Source: Vitis vinifera
Lineage: Eukaryota; Streptophyta; Magnoliopsida; Vitales; Vitaceae
DNA length: 64,000 nt
Assembly (NCBI RefSeq): GCF_030704535.1
Contig: NC_081822.1
Coordinates: forward strand, 2,223,001 to 2,287,000
Direction of reading: 5' to 3'
The notes under the pieces were generated by a model that made no database searches, was not told where the DNA came from, and worked only from the letters and a program-made list of their open reading frames with translations. Below, piece after piece: positions 27,897 through 57,936 of this stretch. Position 1 is the first letter of the stretch; every line of letters starts with the position of its first letter. Both the position numbers and the translations under genes were made by a program.

Positions 27897-29585
27897 TCAT
27901 TGTACATTTTGGGGAAGGCCATCGTTAAATAGAATGCGTGGCTTCCCCATGCTGAAGTTCAGGACCCTTGCATTCATGTTGTACTTGATTTCCCCATCAT
28001 ATAGCAGCTTCCTTATGTAGTGCTCTATGTCGGAACCAATAAGGCGAAGTGTATATTCTGTCAGAGGGGCACCCTGATTCCACATCACATATCAGTCTCA
28101 GAAAAACTCATGGAACAAAGATTGACATGGAGCAGAACGCATGAAAATGTTCTTTTTCTTCCAACGAAGTTTGAATACCGAAAAACTGAAGATAGCAACT
28201 AGTGTAAACATATCTTGTGTTAAAGCAGAGATCATGAAAGAAGTGCTCAACACTCAGAAAACATTAAAAGACTCACTTCCTACTCAAATGTATAGAGATG
28301 AGGATGGCTGTTTTGGGGATGGGCTTTTTGACCAGGCATACAATGGCATCTGATGCTGCAGCTAGTCTTTTGATGTTTTTCTCTCTAAAGAGAACTTTTT
28401 ATAAGGGGTGGACGATATTCTAGTGAACCCTGATGCAAGTATGTGGTGCTAGGCAATGACCATTTGAAGTAATATGTAGCCCCTATCTGGTGGTTACCCT
28501 CATGGCAACCATTGAGAAGAACAAGTCAATTGATTACTAGGGTTAGATCATCACTTTGCAGACCATCCATGGTGGACGGTGCAATGGATGGGGGAAGAGC
28601 GACAATCATGGTGTGCTACAGCCAAATGGTGTAGGATCAATGAAAGTCAAGGTTACTCTGGTGGCTTCTATAAGGGGTAGCATGTCTCTGCTGTACAAAA
28701 TCACACTGAATACTTCCCTCAGTGCTAAAGAAGCACCATGTCTCATGTGATTGGTGGGCAAAGTAAGAAAACTTGGAATATCTGAGTATAGCCAATCGGA
28801 CAAATGTTGGGCAATCAAAGAATGGAGCCTCAATGTATTCCATCTTACCATCTAATCTTCTAAATTAGTTTGCTAGGGACTTGGGCGTGATCCTGTTTTT
28901 AATTTATCAGTCCTAAAATTTCAACTTATTTTTCTTTTCCCTGATTTTCTTGTTATCAATTGTCAAATCAGAACAAGACTCACCATTTCTTCATCTTGAT
29001 ATTCCGAAGAGAAGAGCTTTGCATTGTTTTACCATGGAGTTAGTGGCAAGAAAGCAAGCTTTCCATCCCATTATTGTATATACAAATCCTGAAAGCAGCA
29101 GTAATGGATGAAAGATGACAATGAAAGGAAGATACCTCATAGTGATCTACAAGCTCCTGAAAGTAGGCATAGACCTTGTTGCAAGTCTCTGATGTCCAAA
29201 CAAACTCATTAGTGGGGTCAAGGATAAGGGTGAGCTTATCCATCTGGGTTTGATCAAATTCACAGGTGACTGGATCGATGTAGGCAGCGTATATCCTGAC
29301 ATGGCGAGTGACACTGCTGAGCCACTGCCCCCCATATTCTCTGCTCATGTTCTTGCTCTTCACGTTAACCTGTGGTTCTACGGGTCTTGGTAACTTTTGC
29401 TTCCCTTGCTGCTTCATCTTCTCTTGCTCTTCTTCTTGCGCATTCACTTGCTGTGATTCTTCTACTTCAGCTTGCTGTTGAGCTGAAATGAAGAATGCCC
29501 TCCTCTTTCTCAGCTCTCTTTTGCCTCCAATCCAACCCAACATGGAGAATTTTGTACAAGCCGTGTAAGACGAAGTCGCAGCCAT
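27897..29585 (-). CDS. ndhM: Chloroplast NDH complex subunit M
   Basis: NdhM is a nuclear-encoded subunit of the chloroplast NADH dehydrogenase-like complex (subcomplex A, on the stromal side), which supports cyclic electron flow around photosystem I. Two exons, 29585-29136 and 28073-27897, give 208 residues. The first 50 or so (MAATSSYTACTKFSMLG...) are Ser/Ala/Thr-rich with basic residues and few acids, as in a transit peptide. A Gln/Glu-rich linker follows. The conserved domain covers about residues 95-208, with IYAAYIDPVTCEFDQTQMDK, LILDPTNEFVW, and, in exon 2, RLIGSDIEHYIRKLLYDGE and NARVLNFSMGKPR. I chose the ATG at 29585 over one four codons earlier because it fits a transit-peptide start. 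The frame is intact. Confidence 0.93.
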
Positions 29586-29599
29586 GAGTGGATGCACTA

Positions 29600-31100
29600 G
29601 TTACTGGCTTTAGGAGTTTTTCAGTTCTCCTTTCAGTTTTGCTTTGGGAAATTGCTCCTAAGCACCGGTAGTTTTAGGAAAATTCTCAAGAGGGCCAGTG
29701 GATTTAGACCCTTTCTTTTGTGGATCAGATTTCTTGTTTTTATTGTGAAGAGAGAGCGAGAGAGAGAGAGTGTGTGGTGAACAAAGATACAAAATGGCTA
29801 CCATCAATTGGCTTGTTACAGTGTTGGCCTAATACATTCAAATTGTTTGTAGAAGTAGACCCCCATTTTTTTTTAAATAACAACCCCTTGATTTCAAGCG
29901 CAAAACATATATCATCGTCCAAAAGATGCGGCTGTTTCCACTTTCATGGCATCTTTCATTTCCTTCAACAAATGGCTCGTTGGATGCCCTGCATTATCCT
30001 ATGCTGGTCCTAACAGACACGATTAACATCCTAATGTTTGTGTCCCATTGAGAATACGAAAGATTCGGCTATAAAAGATTCCTCAGATTGAAAAAACAAA
30101 CAAATAAATAAGCGCATTTGTTGGTATGCATATATATAATTCCTCCTTAATATCCGAACATATTTCCTTATTACAAATTTACTATCTCCCAAATAGTTGT
30201 TACTCATAAGTCAATTAAATTAAAAACGAGAAGTTTTGAGAGCATTTTATGTTTTTAAAATCAGAAAATACTAATTATTTTTGTATAAGATACACAAACT
30301 TTTATAAACTTACATTAAAAAAAAAAAAATTTAAAAATTAGGTAAAAGTTTCTACTGCCTCAAATTTTAAAATTTCTAAAAATCATTTTTAAATACATAT
30401 GATAAATTTGTATATTTTTTTTGTGAAAAATGTTCACTTTATATGTAAACTTCTAATTTTGAAAACAAAAAATAAAAAATATATTTAAACAGAAACTTAT
30501 TATTATTATCATTTTCACATCGAAGGAAGTTAGAAACAACCCAAAAAAGCCAGCCAAGTCAAGCAATCTTTACCACTCAAATGCAGACCTCCATTTTTCC
30601 TATGTTCAAGACTGCCTAGGGCGTCTAAAACCATATTTCCTAGGACATTTAGATGATGTTTGATGAATGTTTGTAGGAAATGTTTTTCCCACGTTCAAGA
30701 CTATCTATATTTTTTAGGGCATTTAGAGTGTATTTGATAGTTATTTTTAAAAAAGTTTTTAATCATTATAACACCTTAATAATAAAAAATTTCAAGTATT
30801 AAAAATATGAGAAATGTTTTATAGAATCACTATCAAACGAGTTTTTAGAATATGTTTGATTAGTGATTCTAGAAAATATTTTTATTCTTTTTAATACTTG
30901 AAAAATGAAAATTTTTAACTGTTAAAAAGCTTAAATATCTTAAAGTGTATTTGACAATAATTTTGAAAATGTTTCTAGTATTTTTAATGCTTGAAAAATA
31001 AATATTTTCAAGTGTTAAAAAAACTAAAAACACTACTCTGAATCGTTGTCAAATGCACTCTTAAACCCCCTCAAAATCTGCTTCTTAATTATCCCATTTG
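29600..31100. other. Intergenic region between NdhM and the CCCH gene
   Basis: The left part is the promoter side of the minus-strand NdhM gene, with a GA-rich run at about 29750-29772. From 30100 on it is AT-rich. It includes the MITE-like element listed separately; about 31100-31419 is probably the 3' untranslated region of the CCCH gene. No gene is seen. Confidence 0.5.
30724..31062. mobile_element. MITE-like inverted-repeat element
   Basis: The left end reads gagtgtatttgatag (about 30726) and the right end reads gttgtcaaatgcactc (about 31045-31060), an imperfect inverted pair. A second inverted pair lies in the middle (agaatcactatcaaac near 30824 against gtttgattagtgattct near 30852). 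The inside is AT-rich and non-coding. It is perhaps a nested or rearranged copy of a short non-autonomous DNA transposon. Confidence 0.5.
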
Positions 31101-31419: not shown

Positions 31420-34400
31420 TTATGCTGTCAAATTCTTATTCATTATAAGGACTGGTTTAATCAGCTCATCCAGATCGTCCAAATGCAAATATGATGGTTC
31501 ACTGCCAAACAAGGTTGTTTGCTGGGTCCTTGGACCATTGATACTTCCAATGTCTTCATCACTAACATCCAGGCTGATATAATCAGCAAATCTTCCTTCT
31601 TGAAATGATATGTCATCATTGTTCTTTGCAGTGTCCTTTTCAGACACCACCTTTTCTGGATCACGATTGTTGACATGCCTAAAACCAAAGTACCTTCCTT
31701 GGGCATTTAGCTCTCTTGATTGTTTCTTCTTCTTTCCTTTGCTTCGGTTTTTGGGATGGTGAAGTTTGCATTTGGATCCTAGAGGACAGCTTCCAGTAGC
31801 TTCAAAGATGGGGCAGACATAGCTGTGTTTCTTCCGACACTGCAAGTTCAGAGATTCGGCAATTTAACTTATTACAGCAGTGTTGCAAAGGATTGGGTCA
31901 GTCTACAACTTGACAAGTGAATATATAAAAGTCCAAGCCACCAATATCAAGTTCTTTTACGTTAGGTTTGAACTAGATTCAGTTTTTTCAAGCAGCTTGT
32001 TATTACAACTAGGTCATAAGAGAAACACAATTTCCTCATTCAGCTTATATGAATATTAAAAAAAACCCCTATATCCTGTGTCTTTGTATAACAAGGCATT
32101 ACCTCATTGCCATCAGCACAATAGCCCCTAAGAAAGCCTTCGCAAACAGATGCATTTGGGTTCACATTTACATGCCTATAAGGACAGCTTTCGTTGTTGC
32201 ATAAACCTGCCACAAAATCAGTCAGAATTTTGCATTTTGTTATCATGTTGAGCAAAAGCACAAAGTAGTAAGGCTCACCCTGCAAAAAATAAGAACAGTC
32301 TGGCATTCTTTCTGGAATGACCTGCACAAGATATACAAGGTAACATATTAAGCAAATAATTTTATCAAAAGCACAAGCTGGGAGCCACTTCCAATTGGCA
32401 GCATCAAGTTGTATCAACCAGAACTGAATTACACCTTATGAGTCAATTTGCAATTGGGGTTGGAACATAAACCATTCAGAAACTTTGTGCAGACTGCAAT
32501 TTTAGAGGGATCATGAATATATGGACATTTTCCATCATCCTTGTTGCATTTCCCAAATCTTGTGAAAAACTGACAGTACTTCCACTTCTTAGCCAAGCGC
32601 AGCCTGGCGGTGTGCAAACTCCATCGAACTTTCTCACTTGCCAAGATGCGAGTACGTTTCTTTGGATTTCTGATAAGCTGATTACCATTGCCAATCTGAA
32701 CATATCTGTTGATATTGGAGTGAATTCATGAGCAGATCGTTAGGTATTATATATAAGTGAAACTCAACTTGGAAGGCTTTTTAAATGAAATTATGAGTTT
32801 AGTTATGGCAATCTGATGCAGAAAAGTAGATGGATATACAAGCCACCATACTCATCATTGCCGATCAGCAATCTCCTTGGAATGTAAGGTTTCTTTGCAT
32901 TCTTTTCTGATTGTAGAGCTGCAGAGCATGTTGAATCCCCATCTATACAGAATATAAGGACCAAGTTATGAAGTCAATTCTTGCTAAAAATTGTCACCTT
33001 ACTAACCAAAGAAACAGAGATATTTTCATCAAAGGTGATGAAGCAAGGAAAACAAAAAGTCAAAACTAAGTTCATCAATCATCATGGACCAGTCCCTTAA
33101 TGCTTACCAAGTAGAAATTCAGTCTGACAGTATTAGGCATTATTGTGGTATCTTTAAGTTAGCATTCAGGGGTTCACATGATCTGAGATGATCTCAAAAG
33201 TATGCACCTTTTACAAGCATCCCAATGCCTCCCCAGGTAAGTCCCCCAGAACAAACCCCTCTTCTATTCAAACAGTGTTGAGACTAGCCAGGCTATCAAC
33301 TATTCTTTTACTAATCTATCCACAAAACATGAATACAATTCCAACAATCAAAACAATTAACTAATTGTCTAAATTTTCCAGCAACCTCCCTCACTTTCTA
33401 TAGAGTATTATCCAGCCAACACAGAACATCCTCTAGCATTCTAAGAATCAGTAACCACAATAACATTCCTCAGACTCTCCCAATTTTTGCTCCAACAAAA
33501 ATAGCATCAACCTGTATGACCAGAAGGTTCCAGTCTACAGAATACCAAGCATCATCCTAGTTAATTCAAATTTGCCAAAAAGAATATAAAAGTAGAACCT
33601 TCTCTAACTAGGCAATATTAATAGCTCCTCCTGAATGGAAGTGCAGGCATTCCACTCAGAAGGTCAATTTGATGACCTCAAAATCAAGTCATAGTTCTTC
33701 AAGAGGTTGAATTCCAATACCTGCCTCCTAAAGAAAATGGAAAGAGGAGCAATGCTCATCATACAGGTGACATTTATCTTGTTCATCCTAGTTAACATCA
33801 GTATTAACATAAAATTTACAGGAAAATTGTTCAGAAGGACATGGCAACACACTGCAGTCTTCCAATCAGTAAAACTTTATCCTATGACCGAACTTTCATT
33901 GCAAGCCTGCATTTCCTGCAATGTGCAATCTCTAATTCATCGTTGCAATACCAAATCTCCACAATACATCCTAAGTCAACAAGGGGAGATTAGGAAACAA
34001 TAATCAAAGAAAAAAAGAAGAAGCCATGGCACTATCTTAGCTAGATTCTGCCAGAGAGCTTCTCTTAGGCTGCATGGTAAAAGAATGCAATTGTGCAACA
34101 TGGCACCCCCCTTTTTTTTTTTTTTGATGCATATGAAGGAATTGAACAGCAGAATTTTCAGGGAAGAGGAACATCCACATCAAGCATTGAAAGACCTTCC
34201 CTGAAAACAAATTTTGACTTATCTAGGATCCCTTGGGTGTGACTTCTCCTCGATGGAATTCATTGAGAGGTTGGGTCAAGGATAGATTTCATAGGATTTC
34301 ACATTTTGGATTTTCTGTTTCTTTGTTTTGTTGTTTGTTTTAAAATTCTGTATATTCCCAATTTACTGGGGTTGTGCCCCCTATTTCTGTTTGGTGCTCT

Positions 34401-46439: not shown

Positions 46440-49400
46440 TTAGTCGAAGCTTGATGAGCGGCTCCACCTGCCTTGCAAGTAGTCCTCTAACGAGACACTT
46501 TGCTCAATGCTACTCATGGAGAGTGAATCTTCCTCAACATCAAGTAAAGCAAGGTTAAGATGGGACTGGAGATTTGAATGGGGAAAAGCTTCATCATCTG
46601 GCGTGTCAGACCCTTCACAAGCGTTGACTTGCAACCTTGCCCATTTGGTTGCCTCCGCGTCACCTTGGAGGAGCTTTAAGACCTGTTCTCAGAACAAGGG
46701 TCTGTTAGGAGTGTTTCATATATTAATTGTGGGCTCATGCTAGTATTATTAGGTACTCATGGATAGTTGATTACAGAACAAAATTGAAGGAAATACATTC
46801 AACATCGATGGGATTCATTTTCTTTCCATTACTTGTTTGTAATAAAATTCTGAAAAAATTTGAAGGAAAATGCAAGGGAAAGAATACAAAAAAAAAAAAA
46901 AAGTAGAAGAAAAATAAAAAATAGATTAAAAGTAAATAAATTATTTTAACTTGCTACTTCAAATTTATTTTATTTATTTTAATTCATTGATATAAATATT
47001 AAATAATTTTAAAATACATAAATTCTTAATTAGTTTTAATTTTGATTTTCTTTGATATTTTTCATAGAAATTGAGAAAATCATAACCAAACATAACCTAA
47101 AATAAATTAGAGGAGACTTACAAGGCTCATTTGTGGCCGAGCTCTTGGCGCACGTCTGATACAGAGAATAGCAGCCCATACCATCCTCTCCATCTGGCTG
47201 GAGTCATAGTTACTGCCCAAGCTTGGGTCCAATAATTCAGAAACCTTCCCACCATATAGAATTGGCTTTGCCTGGAAATTAATTTCCTTTTATGAAACTA
47301 GATCAAGAGGTAAATTCAGTACTGAATAAATTGTATGAGTTCCATGGACATACCCACATAACCAGGCTCTCTTGACCTTTTGGATAATCACTGCTGATCG
47401 GTTTTCTTCCCGAAAGAAGCTCAAGGAGGACAACACCAAATGCGTAGACATCTATCTTCTCATTTACTTTGCCATACATGAAGTATTCAGGAGCCATGTA
47501 ACTGCAGAGAAAATAAATGTTCTGAACTTTCTCAATGACAAGTAATAACTTTTTTACTCAAGATTTTAAAGCCATAATTCAAAATAGTGGGGTTTATTGA
47601 TCTTCTGAAAAATGACAAGAATGTGGGACATAGAAGTTATAGCTACTAGAGAAGAAGCACAAACCCGAAGGTGCCAGCAACATCAGAGCAGGTTATATGT
47701 GATGAGGAAGTTGAGGCCCATTTAGCTAGTCCAAAATCAGAGAGCTGAAAAGAAAAAGAAAGGATATTGGTATATTACAGAGTCAGTGAAGACTTCAAGA
47801 AAGAAAAAAAAAATCATCAGATCCAATAAACTATATGGTAAAAATACAGTACCTGTGGCTCAAAATCATCTGCTAATAGTATATTTGATGATTTTACATC
47901 CCCGTGGATCACGGCTTGAGCGCTGCCACAGTGCAGATAATCCAGTGCCTCAGCTACACCCACAGCAACCTTGTATCTCTCACTCCAACCAAATGCAAAA
48001 AGATCCTTTTTATTACCTGATTCAATAAAGAACCAACAAGAAACATATCGCTAATTAAGAACACAACTGTCTTCAATTTCAATTTAATATCTAAAAAAAG
48101 AAAAGTTTTTGTGTAACTCTGGTACCATAAAGGTTCTCCTCCAGGCTTCCTCTTGATAAGAAATCATAAACCAGGAGAAGATTATTGTTCTCAAAACAGA
48201 AGCCCAAAAGGGAAATGATGTTCTTGTGATGCAAGGTAGAAATAATCTCAATTTCCAAGAGGAACTCTTTCAATATATCATCAGATTGCTTCAAGATTTT
48301 CACTGCCAATTCCTTGCCATCAGAAAGACAACCTCTATATACCCGACTGCTTCCACCTTTTCCAATCAAATTCTCTGAAATGACAGAAAACTGATTATTT
48401 TAACTAACATTCTATGAGGACTTAATGGTGTAATTGATTAGACACCACAGTTAGTGGAAGAAAACAAACCAGGCATGAAATTTGATGTTGCCGAGAAGAG
48501 TTCTTGAAACTTGAACAGTCTACAAGTTGCTGAGTACTTCTCATGAAGACCCTCCAATTCTTTAGCCAGCTTTGTTGAACTGCGGCTGGGAGAAGGTGGA
48601 GCAGATGCATTCACAGTTCCTACTGGAACAATTGCACCACTTTCACCATCTAAATTGGTAGATAGGTCTTCATCCCCATCACAACTACTTTCTATATTAT
48701 CCAAACTGGCTGCAGATGGAAAGTTCCTACTGGGCAACCTCATTGCCCACTGAACCACAGAGATCTGCCGCACTGAGGATTTGGTAGAAGTTTGCCGGTC
48801 TGGTAAAATGGCCCGGCGGAGGAGCGGCCAACCAGGTCTCAGTTCAGGCAATTCTCTGATCAACAGAGAGATTGAACTCGATGATGCCTCTAGCTTCTGA
48901 ACAGGCACAATAGCCAGTGAATCATCTTCATGATGGCTGTCACCAGAAGATCCTTCTATGGATTGACTACATGAATTCTCAGGCATAGCAGAGAGTGGGG
49001 CACAAATGGAACAAATTTGTTTTGGCTCACTCTCCTTACAATCTGTACCACCATTAACCAGCCCCAACTCCAAACTCTGGCAAGCACTTGGATCACAGAT
49101 GGTTGATGGCTCCTCATTTACCTTGCCATGATTTAATGCCTTTGATTTCTTACTCACTGACTGCTGAATTCCACCGAGCAAACCATTCCGGCGATGTTCC
49201 TCTTTTTCTGCAACAAGTATACAAGCAATATTAGAATTTGACTACAAGTATAAACTATTCATGCACAAAACTCCAACCTAAGAACTGACACCTTGTGAAT
49301 CAACAGTAGTTCTCATAGAAGCTTCTCTCTGGAACACAACTTTCCCATTGTTCACAGCAAGAACTGAACAATCCTTTGGTAGTTTCTTTGCACAGTACTT

Positions 49401-50273
49401 TGCAACCGCGGCGGATGACCTGATTGCATGATGGTTCCGAGCTGTTCCTACTATAACCTTACTAGCAACATAAGATTTCACCTCCCTGACCAGAATTTTC
49501 CCGATAGATGAACCTCTGCAGATCTTTAGCTTGAGATCCACCTGCAACAATTCCACCAAAAAGACTCAATTCTTTCAGCTCTCTGTTTGTTTCCGAGAAA
49601 TGTTGGGAAAATGGGAAAAAAACTTTAAACCTTTGAATCTAAATTCAACAAAAACTTCCACTGGCTGAACCTAATTCAACCAGTTGGTCCAATTTAGTTT
49701 AATTTGTTCATTTTAAAGAAACCATGACAACAAACGAAAAAACTCAAAATTCCATTTCTCTTCATTCTCTCTGTTTTCTCTGCTACCAAACAGAGTACAG
49801 ATGCTGAATAAGAAAAAAAACAAATAAAAACCCGAGGAAAGAGAATCAAAGAACAGAAAAACAGAAAACAAGCAGAAACACCGACCTGTTTCAAGTTGCA
49901 GAAACCTTCATATACAGCGAAAGAAGCGACGATTTCCCATCTCGATCCACAATTTCTACATACACCCATTTCTCCAAATCAGACAAACTTCACTTCAACC
50001 CATCAAAACCTCCCAAAAGAACAGAAAGCAAGAACACCCACAAAATGAAACACAAAAAAAATAAAAATAAATAAATAAATTCGTACTCAAACCATACTTA
50101 CCATTGTGACCAAGAACATGCAGAGCAATCACACGGTCACCCGGCTGAGCCACTTTCACCAGAGCCCAAGTCAGCAACTCTCTACTCTGCGAGTCCAACT
50201 TCACTCCGACCACCACCGTCCCACCGCCGGACTTCTCCACTTCTCCGGAAGACCCACCTGGTATCATCTTCAT
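46440..50273 (-). CDS. Universal-stress-domain protein kinase (RLCK), frame broken in exon 2
   Basis: Cytoplasmic Ser/Thr kinase with an amino-terminal adenine nucleotide alpha hydrolase-like (universal stress) domain, like Arabidopsis At1g21590/At1g77280. Exons: 50273-50102, 49955-49886, 49541-49292, 49207-48470, 48374-48126, 48016-47853, 47744-47665, 47501-47354, 47271-47122, 46682-46440. Exons 1-3 carry the stress domain ([29 protein letters not shown]); exon 4 is a Ser-rich linker; exons 5-9 carry the kinase: [27 protein letters not shown] (HGD, so non-RD), [15 protein letters not shown]. Exon 2 starts in one frame ([14 protein letters not shown]) and ends in another ([10 protein letters not shown]); the sum, 2264 nt, is not a multiple of three, while 28 more would give 764 codons. 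As written, translation stops after 78 residues at 49893-49891. It is a null allele, a pseudogene in the making, or an assembly error. Confidence 0.88.
49915..49920 (-). other. Probable 28-bp deletion junction in kinase exon 2
   Basis: On the minus strand TCGCTG is read as Ser-Leu in the upstream frame and its GCTG also serves as the start of Ala-Val in the downstream frame. Related proteins, from memory, have about nine more residues between SLL-SL and VYEGF. Loss of 28 bases between two short GCTG copies would give exactly this sequence. An AG at 49906-49908, if used as acceptor, would give a seven-codon exon 2 and restore the frame. Confidence 0.7.
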
Positions 50274-50345
50274 CTTCCTGGTCAGTTTCCAGCGCTGCTT
50301 CCCTCTGATTCCTGCTACCTCACAGTGCTCCGGCCGGTCATCCGT

Positions 50346-50354
50346 TAATATATA
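50346..50354 (-). promoter_or_regulatory. Probable TATA box of the kinase gene
   Basis: The minus strand reads TATATATTA about 75 bases before the start codon at 50273, next to a GC-richer leader. This is a positional inference. Confidence 0.45.
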
Positions 50355-53300
50355 GCTAATCTTAGAGATCAGCTTTAACCGTCGTTGGTTTGCTTTTCAA
50401 GTCGCACACCAGACCAGAAAGTGAAGTGCGGCGTGTTACCCTACGGGCGGTCCTACTTTACTTGATATGACCCATCACAAAAGGTCAGTGATGCCATAAT
50501 GTGAAATATGAACGGTGATGAATGAGGTCACAAGGGCCCACAGTCGAGCGACATCAGACCTAAAATCACGATCAAAGACGTCGTTGAGGAAATCAGGTGA
50601 TCACCATATCACCGTACAGTAGAACTCCATTTATCGAATCACCTACGAGTCATCGAATATCACATACCATGGAGCGTGTCATGCACGCAGTAAGATAAAA
50701 CTTTAGAACCTTTAAGTTGAAAAACTCTCCCACATCAAAACATTTTCCCTCTCGCCAACCCTTTAATTCCAATGGTCTTCGCTTTTGGTAAGAAATATTT
50801 TTTTAGCGATTTGACTACTAATATTTGTTTATTTATTTATTAATCTGAATGCTTTGGAGAGAATAAGGTACAAAAGTTTGATTCATCGGAAAAAAAGTTA
50901 TGGCCTTTATTCTTTAATTAATCACATTAAGATGATTGCCCCAAATTGGTGTACTTTTTTCTCACTTGGCCCAATTCAATAATGGGGGAGTTGGGTTAAT
51001 GTTAAATTAATTTTATTGTTCAAAATTAATGTGCTTTTTGGGTTTTTTTTAGTAAAAATGTCCCATTTTAAACCACATTTATAAAATTAAGAAAAGTTCG
51101 TGTATATATATATATATAGAGTATAAAAAACTTTATCTCATATAGGATATTAAAAAATTAATGGATAAATCTCTCATCTTATGGATAAGTCTCTCCCATC
51201 TCCAACTATAAAAATAATAATGATAATGAGAAAATTATTATTATTATTATTATCTTGTTGGTAAAACCTCTCGATAAATTTTTTTTTGCTAAAATTAAGG
51301 AACTAAATCCCTTAAATTAAGCAACTAAAATTGAGAAATTTGAAATTTGAAATTCAAATTCCCTATCTTTATTTATAAATAAAAAGAAAATTCAAGGCAA
51401 AAGAACTAATACACTTAAGGAATAAACTCCTTGTAACTCTCGAAATCAATAAAATGTCATCATCGTCTTCCAAAGTGTGATCAAGATAAAAGAATCAAAG
51501 GGAAAATATTATTTATTAGAAAGAATATTATTTCTAATATTTTACCCGTGATATTCTTAAATTTAATAAATCATTTGTTTGCGTTATTTTTCCTATTTTA
51601 TTTTGCTAATTTTTGTAGGATAAAATTTTATGAAATTTGTACGTACACTCCTCGTGCAAATACAATATAAAATATTTGTTTTGTTTCATAAGAGATATTT
51701 ATTTGTTTGATGTCGTAATATTGTGAAACATAATGATGTTATATTTATATGAAAGGGGTGATATCTCATTTTAGATAAATGAAAAAGTTTATGATATTAT
51801 ATATAAGTATGAATTATTTTCAATCATATAAACATATTTTAAAACTGTGAGAGAATTTTTTGATTCAAAACAAACAATAAGTAAACCGTTTAATACGAAT
51901 TATTACAAACTTAAATTTATTAATCATAATTGATAATGTTCTATGAAATCCATTAAATCATACCATGGAAAACATATATTTGGTTTTAATGTAGATGTAA
52001 AAATAGTAGGAGTCATTGAAGAGGAGGGTGGTGGACCGTGGAGGGCACCGACCCAATACTCGTGACTGCGCTCAACTCTAAGCTACCACGCTCCGCCAGC
52101 ATGTACACCATCTCACGTGACTCTCAACCCACTGTACGACACGTGGCACCATTATTTTTTATGACGGCTACTGAACACGTGCTTGACAAGCTGACGTCCA
52201 CGTGCCCACTAAGGAAGTGGAGACCCCCATTTTGCTAATTCCACTGAAAGCAGCACCCAAGGGCCAAGACTGTACACAGTCTTTAGCTGCTATGGAAATA
52301 GAGTATTCGGAGCAGAGTAAAAACAAACAAGAGGAACCGCAAAATTACGGGAGGGTAGGGCCATTGATCTTTGATGGGTGACTTTGCATGTGATGAGTTA
52401 GACACGAGTGGGCCCCAACGCTGGTCCACTGTGGTCCACCACTTTCCCGTTGTAGCTGATCCCACCACCACCACCTCCTCCGTTATAATTTAAAATAAAA
52501 TAAATAAATTTTTTATGATTTGTCGGTCAGTCAAAAGCACGGCGTTTTCACGTGTCCAGAAGCCAATATCTACACAGAAATAAAGGAGCGTCCACATCTC
52601 CACGCGCCTTTAGCGCGTGCTACACACGTGAATTGGATTTGAGATGCCATTCATATTATTAAATTAGAAATGAACTTGAGTGGTAAAGTGGTTTAGAGCT
52701 TATTATTTTATTATTTAGGGAATCATTTGAATAAATTGTTGGTTTTATTATTTTTTTATATATTATTATATTTTAAAAAATAATGGGTTTTGAATAAAAA
52801 TATATCATAATTAGTCATTGATAAAAACTTCCCCAGTTGATTATTCTTTTATTTGTTTCATCATTTGTTGGTTTTATTTTAAGAATAATTTAGAAAAAAA
52901 ATCAATATAATATACAAGATTTCATCATCAATTTTTGAAACATTCATAAAATTTTTATTAATTTTCCTTTTTCAAATGTGAAAAAAAAATCCTCAAACTT
53001 AGGATAGCATAAACAAAAGTGTACCAAGCAATGAAGCAATGTTTGGCCAGCTATTCGCAAGGGGGGTATGCATTTGTGTACGGATGACCCACAAACACAC
53101 AACCATCTTCATCTAAGATATTTGTGGATCGCATCCCCCACTACAACTACTTCCATGCTATATGGGGGATGTGTACAAAGCATATGCACATAAAAATAAC
53201 AATAATAATAATAATGTTTTGATTTAATTATTAAAAAAACAAATATAAAAAAGTGTATGGAAAATGTTAAATATATGGTTGTTGCAATTGAGTAGGTCAT

Positions 53301-56655: not shown

Positions 56656-56770
56656 ATACTGACATACCCTGTTGTTCTTCAATATCGTGGTGTATGATAT
56701 TCAAATTAATCAGGAGCTTTCAAGTTTTCATAGTATCAGTGTCATCCTAAAAACAGATGTTGATAAAATC

Positions 56771-57936
56771 ATGCAACTTTATCATCATCCCTACTCATTG
56801 GACAGCCAGAAAGTGAGGCTTACTTTGGAAGAAAATGGCATTGATTACACATCATACCGTGTCAATCCTATCACGGGCAAGAACATGGAACCTTCATTCT
56901 TCAGGCTGAATCCAAGTGCCAAACTTCCTGTTTTTCAGAATGGTTCCCATATCATCTTCGACACGATTGACATAATGCAGTACGTCTCATCCTTTACTAA
57001 TCATTTTTCTATGCTAATTCTGGAAGATTTGAGGGGTGTTTGGAAACAATTTAAAATTTGAATATTCATGATGGCTAAAGAAATTTTAAAGATAACCGGT
57101 AAATGAATAAATAAACAAATAAAGATGAATGCCTTGAGTACCTTCAACTGATATCTCCCTGTCTTTTGATCTCTTTTAACCTATCCGTCACAAACCAATC
57201 TGAAAGGAAGGAGAAAAACAATTCCCATTTTTGAAAGGGATTTGTTGGTTGTGACAGAAGGCATTCATCCTTGAATTGTTTTCCAAATACACCCATATTG
57301 AATATGAGAGAAAACTTTAAGATAGTGTACAAAAATTACAGGTACATAGAGAGAATCGCAGTTTTCACTTTGGGCAGTGAAAATGTCACCCTTAGCAGCC
57401 AAGAAGTTATTGAATGGATGCAGAGGATACAAGCATGGGATCCCAAGTATTTTACTCTCTTCCACATCCCTGAAAAATACCGGTTCACCGTTTCAAAATT
57501 CATAAGGCGGGTTGTGATTGCTAGGATGGCCGAGTCTCCTGATCTGGCAGGTTCCTACCATCTTAAGCTAGATGAGGTATATGAGACAGAAGACAAGTTG
57601 AGAGACCCGGATGTTTTGAAACAGAGCAAGGAACAACTAGCTGAAATTCTTGATGAAGTGGAAAGAAAGCTGAATGAATCAACATACCTAGCAGGGGATG
57701 AATTTACCATGGCAGATGTTATGCTCATTCCAGTGCTGGCCCGAATAGTGCTCTTGGATTTAGAAGAAGAGTATATTTGTAGCAGGCCAAATATTGCTGA
57801 ATACTGGAATCTGGTGCAGCAGAGGCCTAGTTATAAGAAGGTGATTGGTAACTACTTCAGCGGCTGGAGAAAGTACAAAACACTGCTAAAAACCTGGTGT
57901 TTTGTTCGTGTAAGAAGTATGCTGAAGAGATATTGA
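56771..57936 (+). CDS. TCHQD: Glutathione S-transferase, TCHQD class
   Basis: Plant TCHQD proteins resemble bacterial tetrachlorohydroquinone dehalogenases; they are single-copy glutathione transferases whose natural substrate is unknown to me. Two exons, 56771-56979 and 57342-57936, join CA|G to give 267 residues, the expected length. The amino-terminal thioredoxin-like domain (1 to about 75) shows MQLYHHPYSLDSQKVRLTLE with serines at 9 and 12 in the catalytic region, LNPSAKLPVF with the cis-proline, and a DTIDIMQYI helix. The all-helical domain (about 95-267) includes YLAGDEFTMADVMLIPVL, the GST N-capping box region. The tail is basic (KYKTLLKTWCFVRVRSMLKR), fitting reported membrane association of the class. 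The ATG at 56771 is chosen by homology; an in-frame ATG at 56672 lies before the leader. The frame is intact. Confidence 0.94.

Follow-up and report, generated by a model that had tools for sequence, protein, structure and literature searches.

A Kinase Gene with a Broken Second Exon

We analyzed a window of 64,000 nucleotides (G000:C18:2223001-2287000), taken from a genome assembly whose 21 contigs total 495.6 Mb. On its minus strand, from position 50273 to 46440, the window carries a gene of ten exons with sequences for a universal-stress (USP) domain followed by a kinase domain (Table 1): All nine introns are of the GT-AG type, and the exon lengths add up to 2264 nt. The neighbors of this gene in the window are an EF-hand protein (884-1375), an NdhM-like piece (29043-29600), a CCCH zinc-finger piece (31423-31863), and a GST (56663-57933). 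The resulting order, i.e., EF-hand, NdhM-like, CCCH zinc finger, kinase, and GST, may resemble that of the blocks in which At1g21590 and At1g77280 lie in Arabidopsis.

As written, the kinase gene is a damaged copy of a USP-kinase gene and does not encode the full protein. With the given splice sites, exon 2 disrupts the frame: translation ends at the TGA at 49893-49891 with a product of 78 residues, and a single open frame through the USP and kinase domains is absent. The upstream part of exon 2 encodes 14 residues in one frame, the downstream part encodes 10 residues in another, and it is the latter frame that runs into exon 3. Exons 3-10 comprise 673 open codons, and there is no other frame damage in the gene. 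An additional intron within exon 2 was ruled out, as zero bases lie between its halves. An initial annotation of this DNA had already described the exon bounds, the 70-nt exon 2 with its two frames, the 2264-nt sum, and the 78-residue product, all of which we re-derived as stated; its claim that every other exon is open likewise agrees with the 673 codons of exons 3-10.

Downstream of the break, the kinase part scores 144.2 bits with the Pfam model Pkinase. Its lysine, catalytic aspartate, asparagine, and DFG motif are kept, and a stretch of 14 residues as well as the APE motif were found. The arginine of the HRD catalytic-loop motif is present in both sister genes described below and is replaced by glycine in the window gene. 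This arginine is not required in all kinases, as is evident from the non-RD kinases.

Table 1. Features of the kinase gene in the window. Sister genes are denoted C4 and C3.
Feature	Position	Strand	Remarks
Exon 1 (172 nt)	50102..50273	-	Start codon; USP domain, first portion
Candidate donor GT	50096..50097	-	Four bases into intron 1; open frame with the normal acceptor
Candidate acceptor AG	49972..49973	-	86-nt exon 2, frame restored; GAG
Exon 2 (70 nt)	49886..49955	-	Two halves in different frames; C4 sister 28 nt longer between common flanks
Site of the missing 28 nt	49914..49923	-	From the gap-placement scan against C4 exon 2
Candidate acceptor AG	49906..49907	-	20-nt exon 2, frame restored; upstream pyrimidine fraction 0.71, but AAG
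Premature TGA	49891..49893	-	5 nt upstream of the exon 2/3 junction; eight exon junctions downstream of the TGA
Exon 3 (250 nt)	49292..49541	-	Second half of the USP domain
Exon 4 (738 nt)	48470..49207	-	Linker
Exons 5-10	46440..48374	-	Kinase domain and tail, all open; 48374-48126, 48016-47853, 47744-47665, 47501-47354, 47271-47122, 46682-46440
GGG codon	47901..47903	-	Gly in the HRD catalytic-loop motif; Arg in C4 (AGG) and C3 (AGA)

Sister Genes Point to 28 Missing Nucleotides

Searching the genome DNA with the window segment 49500-50345 yielded eight matches: the gene itself, five short matches to its 5′-end, and a sister gene on C4 (L017), which was hit in two pieces. Among the best-scoring candidates of this search, a second copy of the kinase gene was not found. 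A further sister on C3 (L022) was added by a protein search of the genome. Both sisters were compared as matched pieces; as far as matched, their domain and exon order is like that of the window gene, and the identity of the C4 sister amounts to 51-69% in the tblastn pieces that cover exons 1 and 3-10, with intron residues included in the count. In an independent observation, two USP-family matches (L006 and L007, G000:C14:1102314-1102436 and 1110949-1111071) lie 8.6 kb apart and look like tandem duplicates, as their surroundings are 95% alike over 2.8 kb.

Unlike in the window gene, exon 2 of the C4 sister (C4:25214223-25214141) is in frame, reading as 27 residues, and is 28 nt longer. The distance from the GKSS codons to the end of exon 2 amounts to 81 nt in C4 versus 53 nt here, a difference of exactly 28, and the alignment of the two exons contains 48 identical bases out of 53 and one gap, again of 28 nt. 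The conserved exon thus carries a frame-breaking lesion relative to C4. At the protein level, exon 2 of C4 encodes nine more residues than that of the window gene: From LSL to the end of exon 2 there are 21 residues in C3, 19 in C4, and 10 here. The initial annotation had proposed a frame-breaking deletion of 28 nt in this exon and about nine additional residues at this position in relatives; both proposals are supported by the C4 sister, whose exon is longer by exactly this length between the same flanks and by exactly this number of residues.

The Pfam model Usp provides a further, weak witness. The 78-residue product scores 21.7 bits over residues 19-57, which is below the cut-off of 24, whereas a direct joining of the two exon 2 halves scores 28.1 bits. 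Insertion of 3, 5, 7, and 9 unknown residues between the halves gives 30.9, 31.1, 30.4, and 32.0 bits, and insertion of 11, 13, 16, and 20 gives 32.9, 33.1, 31.6, and 30.9 bits. The N-terminal USP domain is consequently recognizable in the DNA when its pieces are joined (28.1-33.1 bits) but not in the 78-residue product. This generic profile indicates that residues are missing between the halves without fixing their number (11-13 are slightly favored over nine), and its weight as a witness is low because three frame-restored splice variants with quite different residues at this position score 29.5, 30.0, and 27.7 bits, close to the direct join.

On these grounds, we consider it likely that a real deletion of 28 nt has occurred in exon 2 of the USP-domain kinase gene, the sole copy found in the assembly. 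The polarity of the change, namely that the bases were lost here and not gained in C4, appears the better reading of the sequences, and it is deduced from two diverged sisters (dS ≈1.3 to C4, saturated to C3). A six-frame search of the window for the lost segment with one short motif, which is a weak test, produced two hits, both in unrelated contexts. Further scans for relatives in public collections were negative: a pattern scan gave 0 matches in viral_contigs and 0 in genome_contigs, the protein scans left none of their candidate stretches confirmed (genome_contigs, 0 of 121; viral_contigs, 0 of 6), and a sequence search of the PDB returned just two weak, unrelated hits (E 0.24 and 0.55). 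Literature searches, judged by titles and the beginnings of abstracts, revealed no published report of this allele.

Junction and Possible Origin of the Probable Deletion

When the 28-nt gap is moved along the alignment with exon 2 of C4, five adjacent placements tie at 48 out of 53 identical bases, from 49923/49922 to 49919/49918. In C4, the tetranucleotide TCTC occurs at each end of the extra segment with a spacing of 28 nt and is the only match of at least four bases at this offset; this repeat is the reason for the five tied placements. The initial annotation had placed the meeting point of the two halves at GCTG, which corresponds to placements 49919/49918 to 49915/49914 with scores of 48, 47, 47, 47, and 46. 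Only the first edge of this tetranucleotide ties with the best placements; the other four score lower. Its related suggestion of a microhomology-mediated event is plausible in altered form: A short repeat does exist in C4, but it is TCTC, and GCTG is found only at the right-hand end. The TCTC pair in C4 makes a deletion between short repeats of this type plausible, with the repeat read from a diverged sister. The general class of frameshift alleles that arise by loss of DNA between short direct repeats offers a comparison: The present case shares with it the small deletion, the broken frame, and, in the sister, a 4-nt repeat at either end; it differs in that the repeat is known from a sister gene and would have to be assumed for the parent allele.

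Age of the Break and Constraint on the Remaining Gene

We then compared the open remainder of the gene with its sisters, using tblastn pieces from which gap and stop columns had been removed; 553 of the 673 residues were aligned in all three copies and 597 with C4, with misalignment of a few residues being possible at the exon boundaries. Over the 553 residues, 37 changes are unique to the window gene versus 49 in C4 (chi-square 1.67), and in the kinase part the unique changes number 18 and 14, respectively. The dN/dS ratio relative to C4 is 0.164 over 597 codons at a dS of 1.34. Relaxed constraint is hence not apparent in the rest of the gene. As there is no overall speed-up and dN/dS is low, either the frame break is young or the remainder of the gene is still used. 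We regard the loss of the 28 nt as probably young. This accords with the initial annotation, which had called the change recent and whose claim is indirectly favored by the missing excess of changes and the low dN/dS, yet the same data fit a gene that is still in use.

Copia-Like Elements Carrying a Piece of the 5′-End of the Gene

Five other loci (L010, L011, L012, L013, and L014) contain a copy, with an identity of 83-96%, of a 121-nt piece from the 5′-end of the gene (50243-50363) that comprises the leader, the start codon, and the first codons. These loci are copia-like elements that are 93-96% alike, and the gene piece lies in antisense orientation in the leader of the element, ahead of a gag-like frame. 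An exact primer-binding-like string occurs in four of the five loci, the exception being L011, and in three of these four, the exception being L012, the exact search string for the fragment is located 57 nt behind it. A search with the leader and the start of gag produced 43 matches, and among the best 12 of these 43, five carry the fragment. In L034 and L038 the flanking leader pieces occur together without the fragment, directly abutting in the former and 17 bases apart in the latter. L035, L036, L037, L039, and L040 contain nothing that matches the fragment, but their leaders align poorly. Because related elements have the leader pieces together without the fragment, it is most likely that a copia-like element took up the gene piece, and not the reverse. 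A review (PMC13317346) deals with plant transposable elements that capture host genes.

Expected Consequences and Alternative Explanations

The loss of 28 nt would shift the frame inside the USP domain, presumably within a helix of the USP fold, and would end translation after 78 residues; with the given splice sites, the kinase would then not be made from the normal start. Because the stop in exon 2 precedes eight exon junctions, the message would be expected to undergo nonsense-mediated decay. The plain expectation is that this is a null or near-null allele.

This expectation depends on the splicing of intron 1. While the initial annotation considered the splice sites of exon 2 to be good, its acceptor turned out to be the poorest of the nine: The pyrimidine fraction over the 17 upstream bases is 0.24, compared to 0.35-1.0 for the other eight, and the acceptor is TAG, compared to CAG at the remaining eight. 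A further AG at 49942-49941, 15 nt inside exon 2 and in the same frame, could be the normal acceptor, which makes the true start of exon 2 uncertain; as this AG shares the frame, the break stands with either acceptor. The GT four bases behind the donor of exon 1 creates a GYNNGY form, and the usual donor GTAAGT contains such a GT by nature. In human and mouse data, splicing at GYNNGY donors is described as primarily noise (PMC4267661).

A shifted acceptor or donor might nevertheless restore the frame, so that the deletion is real and splicing bypasses it, yielding a kinase whose USP helix is altered or shortened; we assign this possibility a small but appreciable chance. Among 41 GT and 25 AG around intron 1 (pairs less than 60 bases apart were skipped), 47 pairs give an open frame into exon 3, but chance alone would leave about half of all frames of ≈13 codons open. 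One candidate is the AG at 49907-49906: The initial annotation had pointed to it (as 49906-49908), rightly in that it restores the frame, but had omitted the other frame-restoring pairs. This site is preceded by a pyrimidine-rich stretch and scores 5.4 versus -5.7 for the normal acceptor with a matrix that was built from only eight sites of the same gene, all CAG, and that is thus too small to trust and over-penalizes TAG. Use of this site would moreover leave an exon of 20 nt, and AAG and GAG acceptors are rare in plants. In favor of a bypass, the weakness of the normal acceptor would permit a different splice pattern, the shifted-site variants remain above the Usp cut-off (27.7-30.0 vs 24 bits), and the gene shows no overall acceleration. 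A kinase could also still be made without its USP part, either from a downstream start, with the first in-frame methionine of exons 3-10 being residue 76 of exon 3 (49316-49314), or from an alternative transcript start. This would be compatible with the open exons 3-10, the strong Pkinase match, and a dN/dS of 0.12 versus C4 in the kinase part; however, a dN/dS average reflects a long past, and the HRD arginine has been replaced by glycine, which leaves this explanation quite unlikely.

The deletion itself might be questioned as well. The initial annotation had allowed for a change in only one haplotype or for an assembly error; the genome search found a single copy. An assembly or collapse error, with the 28 bases being present in the plant, is conceivable in that one haplotype is represented, but we judge it unlikely: The junction lies outside homopolymers and tandem repeats, the combination of a 28-nt loss here and a short repeat at either end in the sister looks biological, and a 1726-residue open reading frame next door is open throughout, which argues against a generally error-ridden assembly. 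An ancestral short exon, combined with a gain of 28 nt in the C4 sister, appears extremely improbable. Although the polarity is deduced only from sister genes, the long spacing is present in the C3 sister, too; moreover, the window gene loses its frame through the short exon, and the 10 residues of the downstream half follow a frame that requires the additional bases. It is only marginally more credible, and still highly improbable, that the break was tolerated as the gene had already been silenced by antisense or small RNA from the copia-like elements, followed by decay of the coding sequence in the form of the 28-nt loss and the exchange of the HRD arginine for glycine. A genuine deletion of 28 nt that most simply leads to a null or near-null allele therefore remains our preferred reading.

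Relation to Known USP Kinases and Implications

We assume group B of the RLCK VI family to include USP kinases of this type and STUNTED to be a further name for those of the AtUK type. In Arabidopsis, the RLCK VI family consists of groups A and B with seven members each (PMC7582978). Table 1 of PMC10003552 lists AtUK1 (At1g21590) with 756 residues and AtUK2 (At1g77280) with 753 residues as proteins that combine USP and kinase domains; the CDS length of 2385 given there for At1g77280 does not fit 753 residues. Compared by these listed domains and lengths, the window gene resembles AtUK1 and AtUK2 in its N-terminal USP domain and C-terminal kinase domain and would encode 763 residues if 28 nt were added, but it differs from them in the broken frame of exon 2 and the exchange of the HRD arginine for glycine.

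The loss of 28 nt is an ordinary kind of gene damage. Annotation software may produce truncated or oddly spliced gene models at this site. Should the allele segregate within the species, it would provide a natural knock-out in a class of kinases that has been little studied and could help to address the function of the USP domain; if not, this is a routine damaged allele that has related sisters on C4 and C3.
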